Assembly (NCBI RefSeq): GCF_037971845.1
Contig: NZ_CP150227.1
Location: forward strand, 2,666,001 to 2,730,000
Length of the DNA stretch: 64,000 nucleotides
DNA from: Paenibacillus sp. FSL R5-0766
GTDB taxonomy: Bacteria; Bacillota; Bacilli; Paenibacillales; Paenibacillaceae
Direction: 5' to 3'
The translations under genes and the position numbers were made by a program. The notes under the pieces were generated by a model. That model saw only the letters and a list, made by a program, of their open reading frames with translations. It was not told the origin of the DNA and did no database searches. Below are positions 23,198-28,055 of this stretch, one piece after another; the stretch's first letter is position 1; each line of letters starts with the position of its first letter.

Positions 23198-23236
23198 TCG
23201 TAATGGTTTCGTAATACTTCGCTTAGAGAATCGTAA
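23198..23236 (+). promoter_or_regulatory. Helically phased direct repeats TCGTAA, candidate response-regulator site
   Basis: TCGTAA occurs at 23198, 23209 and 23231, i.e. at spacings of 11 and 22 bases, with a degenerate unit at 23220. Direct repeats phased by one helical turn are the usual binding pattern of OmpR-family regulators. They lie 56-94 bases before the start of the Met-rich gene, first in an operon encoding such a regulator. Confidence 0.6.
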
Positions 23237-23291
23237 GCTGTCTTGCTTATTGTAATCCATGTAAGAAATAAACCAATGGAGAGTGATAAGA

Positions 23292-23771
23292 ATGATGAAA
23301 ACAAATAAGAGCAAAAAAGTGATGGTAGCAGCGGTATTGATGATGTCTATGGCCTTTTCTGGATTGGCAAGTGCTGCAGATATGAAAACGATTAAAAAGG
23401 ATGGCATGGAGCTTGTTCAATTGAGACAGGCGGCGAAAATGTATGATTACAGCATTATGTGGGACAGCAAGGATAGATCTGTAACTTTGATGTATATGGG
23501 CCAAATGGATGACATGAAGATGAAAGACGACAACATGATGGAAGATGACATGAAGATGAAAGACGATAAGATGATGAAAGACGACATGATGATGGAAGAA
23601 ACGATGATGCCTGCGGGGAAAACGATTAAATTGTGGATTGGATCGAAAAAAATCATGGTAGACGGTATGCAAGTCAACTTGAAATCGATGCCTGTCATCC
23701 ATGAAGGGAATTCGTATGCGGCTGAGTCTGTAATTAAACAATACATGATGCCCGCCATGGGAATGAAGTAA
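23292..23771 (+). CDS. Secreted Met-rich protein built on a copper amine oxidase N-terminal-like domain
   Basis: A 159-residue precursor with signal peptide 1-28 (cut after ASA). Of about 131 mature residues 27 are Met. The two halves resemble the stalk domain Cu_amine_oxidN1 (MELVQLRQAAKMYDYSIMWDSKDRSVTL and KTIKLWIGSKKIMVDG...PVIHEGNSYAAESVI), interrupted at residues 67-106 by a Met/Asp/Lys insert with two 12-residue repeats beginning DDMKMKDD. Met clusters can bind Cu(I) or absorb oxidants such as hypochlorite. Being first in an operon ending with a surface MsrAB, I infer it is a sacrificial or sensory MsrAB substrate; copper binding is the alternative. ATG 23292 follows GGAGAG; 23295 is equally possible. 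Confidence 0.8.
   Translation: MMKTNKSKKVMVAAVLMMSMAFSGLASAADMKTIKKDGMELVQLRQAAKMYDYSIMWDSKDRSVTLMYMGQMDDMKMKDDNMMEDDMKMKDDKMMKDDMMMEETMMPAGKTIKLWIGSKKIMVDGMQVNLKSMPVIHEGNSYAAESVIKQYMMPAMGMK
23508..23597 (+). repeat. In-frame 36-bp tandem repeat encoding the Met-rich block
   Basis: Two full 36-bp units (23508-23543, 23544-23579) and half of a third (23580-23597) encode DDMKMKDDNMME, DDMKMKDDKMMK and DDMMME. The unit is a multiple of three, so copy-number change would alter Met content without breaking the frame. Confidence 0.85.
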
Positions 23772-23833
23772 TTTAAGGGCTAAGCATCGCCATCACCATA
23801 TGATATGATTGGCTCAAATGTATTTTCTGGAAT

Positions 23834-24553
23834 ATGGGGTGGGTTCGTTTGAATGAATGTGTACTGGTTGCTGATGATGATACCAATATTACGGACGTTT
23901 GTCGCAGGTATCTGGAACGGGAAGGTTATCTTGTCGTGACGGCCAAGGACGGTTTGGAGGCTATTGAGCTGTGGCACAGTCAAACACCAAGCTTGATTGT
24001 GCTCGACCTGATGATGCCACATAAGAATGGCTGGGAAGTTTGCAACGAGATTCGGCAAACTGAGGATGTGCCCATTGTAATGCTGACGGCCCGGGGTGAG
24101 GAACAGGACCGTCTGATGGGACTGACGATGGGGGCGGATGATTATCTGACCAAACCATTCAGTCCGAGAGAACTTGTTTTGCGTGTAAAGGCAATCCTGC
24201 GGAGAATGCGAACTGCGCAGGCATCACCTGTTACAACTTCTGAATATACGATCAATTATGAAGGGCTTACCATTGATTTTACCAAGCGTGAAGTGCACAT
24301 CAGCGGGCAGGCCATTGAATTGACCGTTACAGAGTTTGAGATGTTGTATTTGCTGGCAAGTCACCCGGGTCAGGTGTTCTCCCGTAATCAGATGTTAAGC
24401 AAGATTTGGGATTTTAGCTATGAGGGAGATACAACAACGGTGACTGTACATGTTCGGAGATTACGAGAGAAGATCGAACAGAATCCTTCTGATCCAAAAT
24501 ATATTAAAACAGTTTGGGGTATAGGCTACAAGTTTGCGGGTGGCAGTTCATGA
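23834..24553 (+). CDS. OmpR-family response regulator
   Basis: A 239-residue regulator. REC domain with VADDD, phospho-acceptor D58 in LIVLDLMMP, T in VMLTARGEE and K in YLTKPFSPRELVLRV; then a winged-helix DNA-binding domain from about 140 (IELTVTEFEMLYLLASHPGQVFSRNQML, TVTVHVRRLREKIE, IKTVWGIGYKF). ATG 23834 has no clear SD; a TTG at 23849 behind GGGGTGGG is an alternative start. The gene is 62 bases after the Met-rich gene and overlaps the kinase gene by ATGA. Likely target: the phased TCGTAA repeats at 23198, i.e. its own operon. Confidence 0.93.
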   Translation: MGWVRLNECVLVADDDTNITDVCRRYLEREGYLVVTAKDGLEAIELWHSQTPSLIVLDLMMPHKNGWEVCNEIRQTEDVPIVMLTARGEEQDRLMGLTMGADDYLTKPFSPRELVLRVKAILRRMRTAQASPVTTSEYTINYEGLTIDFTKREVHISGQAIELTVTEFEMLYLLASHPGQVFSRNQMLSKIWDFSYEGDTTTVTVHVRRLREKIEQNPSDPKYIKTVWGIGYKFAGGSS

Positions 24554-26350: not shown

Positions 26351-26368
26351 TCATTGGAGGAATTTGGT

Positions 26369-26950
26369 ATGAAGATGGCACGGAAATGGATGGTATCTGT
26401 AATCGTATTTGCTGGAGTCCTGTTGATCTTGAGCGCATGTGGATCACAGCAAACTGAATCAAAACAAATGGGGTCTTCATCAACCCCGACATCAACATCC
26501 GATATGAGTTTGTCAACCATGATGAACAAGGGCGAGACGGCTCCTGAATTTTCATTGCGTGATCTGAAAGGAAACACGGTTGGACTTTCTGATGTTCAAG
26601 GCAAGAAAGTGTATGTGAAATACTGGGCTTCCTGGTGTTCCATCTGCCTTGCGGGTTTGGAAGACCTGAACAATCTAGCTGGTCAAGACAATGATTTTCA
26701 AGTCATTACGATTGTGACGCCAGACTACAAAGGGGAGAAATCCTCCCAAGCGTTTACCGAATGGTTTGACCAACAGCCGTATGATAACATAACTGTTCTT
26801 TTGGATGAGAAAGGTGTATGGGCCAAGGAATTTGGCGTAAGAGCGTATCCTAGTTCCTTTTATATTGGCTCTGATGGTATTTTAACGAAATCGCAGCCAG
26901 GGCATGCATCCAATGAACAGATCATGGAATCATTACAAGAGATTTTGTGA
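26369..26950 (+). CDS. TlpA/Etrx-like thioredoxin-fold lipoprotein
   Basis: A 193-residue lipoprotein (lipobox ILSAC) on the outer face of the membrane. The thioredoxin fold contains WASWCSICLAGLEDL with a CxxC at C90/C93, preceded by APEFSLRDLKGNTVGLSDVQGKKVYVKYW, an AhpC/TSA-Redoxin type start, and ends with the cis-Pro block AYPSSFYIGSDG. In Streptococcus pneumoniae the homologous Etrx proteins receive electrons from CcdA and reduce surface MsrAB; the gene order here is the same. ATG 26369 has TTGGAGG upstream; the ORF from 26354 would start within that SD. Confidence 0.92.
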   Translation: MKMARKWMVSVIVFAGVLLILSACGSQQTESKQMGSSSTPTSTSDMSLSTMMNKGETAPEFSLRDLKGNTVGLSDVQGKKVYVKYWASWCSICLAGLEDLNNLAGQDNDFQVITIVTPDYKGEKSSQAFTEWFDQQPYDNITVLLDEKGVWAKEFGVRAYPSSFYIGSDGILTKSQPGHASNEQIMESLQEIL

Positions 26951-26966
26951 GAAGGGAGGAAGTGTC

Positions 26967-28055
26967 ATGAAAAGGACGCTGCTCGGCTTGTGCCTCCTTG
27001 TTATAGCGATAGTTGTGTCTGCTTGTGGAAACAGGGCTGAGAGTCATTCATCTTCATCTACGATATCCACTCAACCTGTCAAGGCATCGAGTGTCTCCGA
27101 GGAAAACCTGAGTAACCTGTACTTGGCAGGAGGCTGTTTCTGGGGTGTGGAGGCTTATATGGCTCGTATTCCAGGGGTTCAGGATGTGACTTCCGGTTAT
27201 GCCAACGGTGAAGGAGAGAATCCAACCTATGAGGAGGTTATTCGCGGGGACCGGGGGTTTGCGGAGGCTGTTCATGTAAAATATGATCCGCAGCAAGTAT
27301 CTTTGCAGAAATTGCTTGAATCTTATTTTCGAGTTATTGATCCTACCAGCTTGAATAAGCAGGGCAATGATCGTGGCGTTCAGTATCGGACTGGCATATA
27401 TTATACGTTGCCTGAAGATGCCAAAATCATTGAGCAGGCTGTAGCGGTAGAGCAAGAAAAATATGACCAACCCATTGTAACGGAAGTGATGCCTCTGCAG
27501 AATTATTATTTGGCGGAGGAGTACCATCAGGATTATTTGGAAAAAAATCCGAACGGATATTGTCACATTGATATGACTGTCCTGGATGACCTGGAGATTG
27601 GAATTGATCCCGCTCAATATCCACGTCCAACAGATGAACAATTAAAGGAACGATTAACAGACGAACAGTATGCGGTCACGGTAAACAATGATACGGAGCA
27701 TGCGTTCAGTAACGAATACTGGGATAATGAGGAGCCCGGTCTGTATGTGGATATTGCAACGGGAGAGCCGTTATTCACCAGCCGGGATAAGTATGATTCC
27801 GGTTGCGGGTGGCCAAGTTTTACAAAACCGATTGTACCTGAGGTTGTGACCTATACAACCGATACGAGCTTTGGGATGGATCGCACGGAGGTACGAAGCC
27901 GGGCAGGTGACATCCACCTCGGTCATGTGTTCGATGATGGTCCCAAAGATCGCGGCGGCAAACGTTACTGCATTAACAGTTCATCGATCCGGTTTATTCC
28001 GTTAGACAAGATGGAGGAAGAACGATACGGGTATTTATTGTCTTTTGTCGAGTAG
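26967..28055 (+). CDS. msrAB: Membrane-anchored MsrA-MsrB methionine sulfoxide reductase fusion
   Basis: A 362-residue lipoprotein (lipobox VVSAC) repairing both methionine sulfoxide stereoisomers outside the membrane. MsrA domain ~50-205: catalytic C57 in GGCFWGVEAYM, GVQYRTGIYY, recycling cysteine C199 in YCHIDM. MsrB domain ~220-362: DSGCGWPSFTKP (C280), RSRAGDIHLGHVFDDGP and catalytic C335 in RYCINSSSIRF. The zinc-binding CxxC pairs found in many MsrB proteins are absent. The gene ends the operon behind ccdA and the thioredoxin lipoprotein, which would supply its electrons. SD GGGAGG precedes ATG 26967. Confidence 0.95.
   Translation: MKRTLLGLCLLVIAIVVSACGNRAESHSSSSTISTQPVKASSVSEENLSNLYLAGGCFWGVEAYMARIPGVQDVTSGYANGEGENPTYEEVIRGDRGFAEAVHVKYDPQQVSLQKLLESYFRVIDPTSLNKQGNDRGVQYRTGIYYTLPEDAKIIEQAVAVEQEKYDQPIVTEVMPLQNYYLAEEYHQDYLEKNPNGYCHIDMTVLDDLEIGIDPAQYPRPTDEQLKERLTDEQYAVTVNNDTEHAFSNEYWDNEEPGLYVDIATGEPLFTSRDKYDSGCGWPSFTKPIVPEVVTYTTDTSFGMDRTEVRSRAGDIHLGHVFDDGPKDRGGKRYCINSSSIRFIPLDKMEEERYGYLLSFVE

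Follow-up and report, generated by a model that had tools for sequence, protein, structure and literature searches.

A conserved six-gene unit of Paenibacillus encoding a methionine-rich stalk-domain protein, a two-component pair, and a surface methionine sulfoxide repair relay

Reduction of methionine sulfoxide outside the cytoplasm is assigned in several bacteria to gene clusters that resemble a locus of Paenibacillus sp. FSL R5-0766 (contig NZ_CP150227.1), the subject of this analysis. The locus lies in a stretch of 64,000 nucleotides, positions 2,666,001 to 2,730,000 of the forward strand, called the window below, and all coordinates count from its first letter; the genome is one contig of 7.0 Mb, and its relatives are Paenibacillus. 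Six genes encode, in order, a methionine-rich exported protein (the exoprotein), a response regulator, a histidine kinase, the membrane protein CcdA, a thioredoxin-fold lipoprotein of the Etrx type, and a lipoprotein, MsrAB, in which the methionine sulfoxide reductases (Msr) MsrA and MsrB are fused. This set is a real, old unit, and it is read here as a defence of the envelope against methionine oxidation, with a probability of about 0.57.

Related systems

As for the closest described systems, taken here from the available parts of the cited papers, Streptococcus gordonii has the two-component pair Sgo_1180/1181, CcdA1, the thioredoxin lipoprotein Sgo_1177, and MsrAB in one operon, and the electron path from CcdA to the lipoprotein and on to MsrAB has been shown biochemically (PMC7034828). 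The five kinds of gene are the same as in Paenibacillus, with MsrAB in the last place; the Paenibacillus unit has in addition a Met-rich protein, whereas the term "methionine-rich" is absent from the S. gordonii paper as far as its available text goes (PMC7034828), and the two sensors are likened by kind of gene alone, not by sequence. Fusobacterium nucleatum has the ccdA/trx-msrAB-modRS locus, induced by peroxide and with trx and ccdA under ModR control; it also keeps CcdA, Trx, and MsrAB together with a two-component pair, but the genes of the pair are downstream, and "methionine-rich" does not occur in the accessible text of that paper either (PMC9239216). The surface relay of S. pneumoniae, ccdA1-etrx1-msrAB2, is induced on yesN over-expression (PMC11034029); it is similar as a relay, and it differs in that the regulator of its YesNM pair is of the YesN type and the etrx1 operon is described as three genes (PMC3914529, PMC11034029).

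Other clusters combine a different reductase with a Met-rich peptide. Brucella BcrX, called an MXKDX protein and linked to hypochlorite (HOCl) resistance, is encoded beside MsrQP; it shares with the Paenibacillus unit a Met-Lys-Asp repeat peptide adjoining an extracytoplasmic Msr, but it is controlled by an extracytoplasmic function (ECF) sigma/anti-sigma pair, and the reductase is of the MsrPQ type (PMC8315932). The window protein, moreover, has no score with the MXKDX model. Uropathogenic Escherichia coli groups orhK/orhR with c3566/c3567, encoding an Msr, and c3568, encoding a Met-rich peptide, in a system that answers peroxide; sensor, extracytoplasmic Msr, and small Met-rich peptide are the common traits, while the reductase is of the molybdenum MsrPQ type, the peptide is different, and the setting is the Gram-negative periplasm (PMC8550376). 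The Paenibacillus unit, instead, encodes MsrA and MsrB domains according to Pfam, and not a reductase of the MsrPQ kind. Azospira is said to have an MXKDX peptide, MrpX, beside an extracytoplasmic Msr and with a link to HOCl.

The preliminary description of the locus, made from its letters alone, knew of no described system with this exact set, and this was too strong, because the pair with CcdA, thioredoxin, and MsrAB, as well as the combination of sensor, Msr, and Met-rich peptide, are already published; the near sets, to the extent that the sources were available, are those of S. gordonii (PMC7034828), F. nucleatum (PMC9239216), and uropathogenic E. coli (PMC8550376). Its likening of the genes to the pneumococcal CcdA-Etrx-MsrAB relay held, as the parts resemble the pneumococcal ones. 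The new elements are the carrier, with its Met-Lys-Asp repeat inside a stalk domain, the Gram-positive thiol version, and the recurrence of Met-Lys-Asp chains in streptococcus-like loci; no paper on the Paenibacillus unit was found in the open-licence literature, among the matches listed.

The six-gene unit and its conservation

The features of the unit, all on the + strand, are the following.

23131..23166, +, terminator-like hairpin at the upstream border, 16 pairs then a T run
23198..23238, +, conserved promoter box, with TCGTAA at 23198, 23209, and 23231 and the inverted repeat GCTTA-N8-TAAGC at 23221-23238
23248..23253, +, candidate -10 element TATTGT, suggested by a constant spacing from the box in relatives, read by eye
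23292..23771, +, Met-rich exported stalk-domain protein, with a signal peptide at 23292-23375 (by eye) and PF07833 halves flanking the linker
23496..23618, +, Met-Lys-Asp repeat linker, 15 Met in 41 residues, copy number varying among relatives
23849..24553, +, OmpR/PhoB-type response regulator, alternative start ATG 23834
24550..25590, +, histidine kinase of 346 aa, two hydrophobic stretches with about 10 residues between them, Met29 invariant
25622..26350, +, CcdA membrane thiol-electron carrier, DsbD_TM
26369..26950, +, Etrx-type thioredoxin-fold lipoprotein, lipobox LSAC, WCSIC motif
26967..28055, +, MsrA-MsrB fusion lipoprotein, lipobox VSAC
28101..28141, +, terminator-like hairpin at the downstream end, 19 pairs then a T run

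The place, strand, and order of the six genes agreed with the preliminary description on the grounds of gene order, lipoboxes, and Pfam domains, which are, from first to last protein, PF07833; Response_reg and Trans_reg_C; HAMP, HisKA, and HATPase_c; DsbD_TM; Redoxin/AhpC-TSA; and PMSR and SelR. The gaps between the genes are 62, -4 (overlap), 31, 18, and 16 nt, so the limit of 62 bases and the kinase overlap given there were correct, and the six genes presumably form one transcript. The terminator placed there at the end of the unit is the T-run hairpin at 28101-28141, to which the second hairpin at 23131-23166, upstream, was added. Both hairpins contain the motif ACGGTTG-N3-TCTCTC, which at up to 2 mismatches has 8 matches in the window where 1.33 would be expected; 4 of the 8 fall in these two hairpins.

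Regarding the exoprotein, it has 159 aa with 33 Met, 27 of which are after residue 27 (the earlier count of 27 Met in about 131 residues was right), no Cys, and one His. Its PF07833 stalk domain (42.4 bits, cut-off 24.2) was overlooked in the preliminary description, like the conserved promoter box from 23198; the Met tract is an insert between the two halves of this domain, and the halves of the window protein have 12 Met in 88 residues. In an alignment of 38 rows, chosen by the authors from the window protein and 113 homologues, the linkers hardly align, although their composition is 33.8% Met, 25.9% Asp, and 15.4% Lys, and the stalk-domain halves have 11.6% and 12.5% Met. In thirty other stalk-domain matches of the same genome, Met accounts for 58 of 2672 residues (2.2%) overall and for at most 4.8% in any single match; this is not a full census, since the search gave 33 matches, 30 of them as loci, and the window's own exoprotein was unlisted. 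The linkers contain 66 copies of the pattern M.KD, whereas 500 shuffles gave a mean of 24.6 and a maximum of 36.

The exoprotein is alone in having at least 12% Met among the 160 open reading frames (ORFs) of at least 80 aa listed mechanically in the window, and in 69 Paenibacillaceae loci (2087 ORFs of at least 80 aa, many from near relatives) all 34 ORFs at or above this value are at the exoprotein position; two loci (L198 and L200) have the gene with Met below 12%. Chance as the origin of this Met-richness was rejected on the ORF survey and on the enrichment of linker and halves with respect to other stalk domains. The structure model of the exoprotein is weak (mean pLDDT 53, linker below 50), and the best structural matches of this low-confidence model are amine oxidase chains, the source of the domain name.

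The exoprotein profile found 18 loci in the GTDB species collection, titled Paenibacillus or Cohnella: 14 have the six genes in order, two of them with broken frames (MsrAB in L133, regulator and kinase in L137), three have the first three genes only, and one (L146) only a regulator remnant. The kinase was found at E 1e-120 or better in 38 of 394 family genomes, with a Met-rich stalk protein directly upstream in 37 and surface MsrAB in 32 of these loci; the neighbourhood is conserved, as a check proposed in the preliminary description would have it. In the 32 genomes with both, kinase and MsrAB distances are correlated (Mantel r 0.868, a value reached in 0 of 999 permutations). On the kinase tree, where 14 of 33 inner branches are open, the six loci devoid of MsrAB need three label changes: G020, G010, G060, G096 and, apart from them, G023 sit among six-gene loci, and G312 is on a long branch. 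A recent assembly of the unit is rejected because the MsrAB-less loci are nested among those that carry MsrAB, and the record reads as that of an old unit from which the repair genes were later lost at least twice.

Single loci show further variations. In G023 (L096), ccdA-etrx-msrAB is gone except for a 23-codon ccdA stub, followed by a glycosidase-like gene on the other strand (by eye). The exception among the 38 kinase loci is G358 (L199), where the promoter box is intact and the exoprotein gene, before the regulator, is replaced by a short frame that consists of seven ATG codons followed by a stop. As for G312 (L202, 3738-4283), its stalk protein is 32% identical, with MTMKD repeats that precede the domain rather than sit inside it; no MsrAB match was found in the stretch.

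Kinase, promoter box, and repair genes

The kinase has two membrane helices and a loop too short for a ligand domain, as SaeS-like intramembrane-sensing kinases do, judging from sequence and hydropathy (n=37); Met29, between the hydrophobic stretches, is found in 37 of 37 sequences, and in P0148 it is the annotated first residue. Within the available parts of the sources, the intramembrane-sensing kinase SaeS has a linker of nine residues, Met31 affects its activity, and SaeP/SaeQ are expected to bind it (PMC5083920), while HprS senses HOCl by two periplasmic Met residues (PMC10151825); Met29 may be likened to SaeS Met31 and to the HprS pair by analogy only. Staphylococcus aureus SaePQRS and the Paenibacillus unit both have a short-loop kinase with a loop Met and an exported protein made from a regulated promoter, but SaeP is a lipoprotein, and the likeness drawn here is one of features (PMC5083920). 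A solved SaeR piece is one among many OmpR-family matches, and the JGI labels of three relatives read SaeS. To our knowledge, Msr genes are not part of the S. aureus Sae system.

The TCGTAA repeats of the promoter box stand in an 11-bp register, and the first half-sites, CGTAAN6CGTAA, have the same spacing as the two half-sites of GTTAAN6GTTAA, 11 bp apart, to which SaeR binds (PMC5083920, available part). In 17 of the 18 titled loci, the distance from the beginning of the box to the start codon is 92-96 nt, with at most one mismatch in the first two half-sites (the miss is L146); its core pattern, with a few variants allowed, is present in 35 of the 38 kinase loci, has two mismatches in G302 and three in G098, and was not found in G312. 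The 18-bp core occurs once in the whole genome at up to two mismatches, and four times at up to three, versus three for the control. The box is a probable site for the response regulator of the unit. A wider regulon is not claimed, because TCGTAAN5TCGTAA with at most one mismatch has 27 places in the genome against 44 for the reversed-pattern control, and at the six offsets tried no third half-site, even with one mismatch allowed, accompanies any of the remaining 26. The regulator itself probably starts at TTG 23849, and not at ATG 23834, because GGGGTGGG is just 5' of this TTG and several relatives begin with Met there.

As for the repair genes, the set of the CcdA-Etrx-MsrAB surface relay is complete: a DsbD_TM CcdA, a CxxC lipoprotein, and an MsrA-MsrB fusion lipoprotein are encoded together. 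Etrx matches the solved thioredoxin-family chains 4hqs, 2yp6, 4evm, and 4hqz with E from 1e-36 to 3e-32; we take these chains to be pneumococcal Etrx structures. Etrx and MsrAB are a single frame in 10 of 21 fetched loci with both (L181-L201), and such fusions would be indirect support for electron passage from CcdA to Etrx and MsrAB. The ten loci are L183, L185-L190, and L193-L195; L148 and L149 have such a single frame as well, the frames being of 517-616 codons, and the arrangement resembles the three-part enzyme of Neisseria. That a second surface MsrAB covers for the lost copy was considered and is unsupported: in the three genomes read for this purpose, namely G010, G020, and the window's own (G023, G060, G096, and G312 were not among them), the second MsrAB lacks an obvious signal peptide and looks cytoplasmic, and therefore the surface enzyme seems gone in G010 and G020.

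Etrx at E 1e-35 or better occurs in 61 of the 394 genomes, that is, in 32 of the 38 with the kinase and in 29 of the 356 without it. Among the latter, 22 were examined, including G005 and G018, and in 14 of the 22 MsrAB is followed by a YesN/YesM-type gene, a type recognised by similarity to the G005 pair, which we presume to be YesN/YesM. G094 and G287 have another OmpR-type pair upstream, G094 also a DM13-domain lipoprotein with 6.8% Met, and in G300 the upstream kinase matches at 52% and the regulator in two pieces. An alternative front end was observed in L253 and L256, where a DoxX-like gene (by eye), regulator, kinase, CcdA, Etrx, and MsrAB follow each other; L253 also has a DM13-domain lipoprotein with 6.8% Met.

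Recurrence in other Bacilli and possible working

The most interesting aspect of the locus is that Met-Lys-Asp chains recur beside surface MsrAB. In a class-wide sample of Bacilli, Etrx was found in 41 of 398 genomes, 19 of which belong to one genus, taken as Streptococcus from gene order, and the MsrAB-linked locus was examined in all 19. A separate Met-Lys-Asp gene of 71-124 codons lies between ccdA and etrx in 12 (L267, L268, L270, L273-L279, L281, L282), the 71-codon frame of L279 having no signal part; in two others (L269 and L272) a Met-rich tract is at the Etrx N-terminus, with 8 and 19 Met, respectively, before the fold, signal part counted. A second CcdA-Etrx pair is present in 15 of the streptococcus-like genomes, and in the eight examined it has no MsrAB in the stretch; a Met-rich gene was found at none of these eight paralogous loci, and five of the eight genomes do carry one at their own MsrAB locus. 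Two of the streptococcus-like lipoproteins, scanned with TIGR02953 (MXKDX), reached 32.8 and 25.1 bits (E 4.9e-8 and 1.3e-5), under the 41-bit cut-off. The repeated occurrence, in other Bacilli, of an exported Met-rich protein next to surface MsrAB makes a functional link likely.

In the proposed defence of the envelope, the disordered Met-Lys-Asp repeat of the exported protein would take up hypochlorite, chloramines, or peroxide as Met sulfoxide; CcdA would hand cytoplasmic electrons to the Etrx lipoprotein, which would reduce MsrAB, and MsrAB would turn Met sulfoxide back into Met, both in the tract and in further surface proteins. Activation of the unit, through the TCGTAA repeats, may be the task of the OmpR/kinase pair with its short-loop SaeS-like sensor and the invariant loop Met of this sensor. 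The likeliest course is that the Met tract takes up oxidant and that MsrAB recharges the tract where it is present.

Several results weigh against this proposal. The repair genes are absent in 6 of the 38 kinase loci, which keep the Met-rich protein or an equivalent, and none of these six genomes has a listed Etrx at E 1e-35; therefore MsrAB recycling is not obligatory. None of the 22 examined Paenibacillaceae Etrx loci without the kinase has an ORF of at least 80 aa in which Met reaches 12%; within this family, therefore, it is the sensor and not MsrAB that the Met-rich protein accompanies. In another family (f13), nine of the 16 genomes were read, and the same test gave no Met-rich ORF in these nine. 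Five of the 19 streptococcus-like MsrAB loci have neither Met-rich form (in three of these five, L266, L283, and L284, ccdA was not found beside the locus), and the 12 Met-Lys-Asp genes, three of which are identical, are related in sequence and may therefore go back to one event instead of being 12 independent cases. Finally, the window protein and five relatives are unlisted by TIGR02953 (MXKDX/MrpX) at E up to 10; this model had no match in the window's own genome, and the same search gave none in control genomes either. An obligatory cycle is disfavoured by the six loci that have lost MsrAB and by the other examined MsrAB loci of the family, which have no Met-rich protein; both leave room for copper binding and sensing. 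The idea in the preliminary description that the Met-rich protein is joined to the repair relay is partly supported, by the conserved unit and by the recurrence in other Bacilli, but resetting of the exoprotein by MsrAB cannot be a necessary step.

The exoprotein might mainly be a sensor part that, oxidised or metal-bound, would act on the short-loop kinase as SaeP may act on SaeS, with the antioxidant load as a secondary trait; this is somewhat unlikely as its chief role, and it is compatible with the envelope defence rather than exclusive of it. In 37 of 38 loci the kinase is accompanied by the exoprotein, even where MsrAB is lost, as expected for such a part, and a loop too short for a ligand domain that keeps Met29 in 37 of 37 sequences agrees with it, as do, within the available text, the Met31 linker of SaeS with the expected SaeP/SaeQ binding (PMC5083920) and the HOCl-sensing periplasmic Met pair of HprS (PMC10151825); instead, the lack of a visible lipobox or anchor in the exoprotein fits it poorly, like the sensor and box that L199 (G358) keeps in the absence of the exoprotein. 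A copper or silver buffer is unlikely; in this reading, Cu(I)/Ag(I) would be bound extracellularly by the tract, metal stress would be the signal for the sensor, and MsrAB would serve to maintain the Met ligands in the reduced state. It would explain why sensor and Met-rich protein persist in loci devoid of MsrAB, and the MM, MxM, and MxxxM spacings of the window protein, with no Cys and one His, suit it; moreover, in the available part of a study on E. coli, CusF loses metal binding on Met oxidation and MsrP partly restores it, with cus and msrPQ both regulated by CusSR under copper stress (PMC9302797). However, after Met the tract is chiefly Asp and Lys, not His, and inspection of the 18000-33000 translations by eye showed no copper ATPase or oxidase. 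As evidence for copper, the name "copper amine oxidase N-terminal domain" was rejected, because PF07833 has 33 matches in the genome.

That the Met tract is a neutral, slippage-prone repeat in a structural stalk protein, with unrelated neighbours, is highly improbable: a protein length of 141-177 aa among seven close relatives is what slippage would give, and the seven-ATG frame of L199 points the same way, but Met enrichment extends outside the tract, the tract composition is kept although the linkers hardly align, an equivalent protein has its tract elsewhere (L202), and the recurrence beside MsrAB in other Bacilli is not expected from slippage. A broader form of the envelope defence, put forward tentatively and with more doubt than belief, is that Met-Lys-Asp chains are recurrent, independently evolved partners of surface Met-sulfoxide repair, forming a rechargeable Met pool in the envelope whose oxidation the Paenibacillus kinase would read by its loop Met; the carriers would be the stalk-domain insert in Paenibacillus and Cohnella, the lipoprotein or Etrx tail in the streptococcus-like genomes, and MrpX-type peptides in proteobacteria.

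In conclusion, the shielding of the Gram-positive envelope from hypochlorite and related oxidants is, in our view, less studied than that of Gram-negative bacteria. A search of the open-licence literature gave no paper, among the matches listed, on a streptococcal Met-rich lipoprotein in an msrAB operon, and the streptococcus-like Met-rich gene, unmentioned for the published operons in the available parts of the papers, may belong to a pathway under study and have been overlooked there. Strains in which the repair genes are naturally lost or fused are ready for tests, and, if the reading is true, the coupling of a renewable Met pool to MsrAB would be a general principle of defence, found in unrelated carriers.

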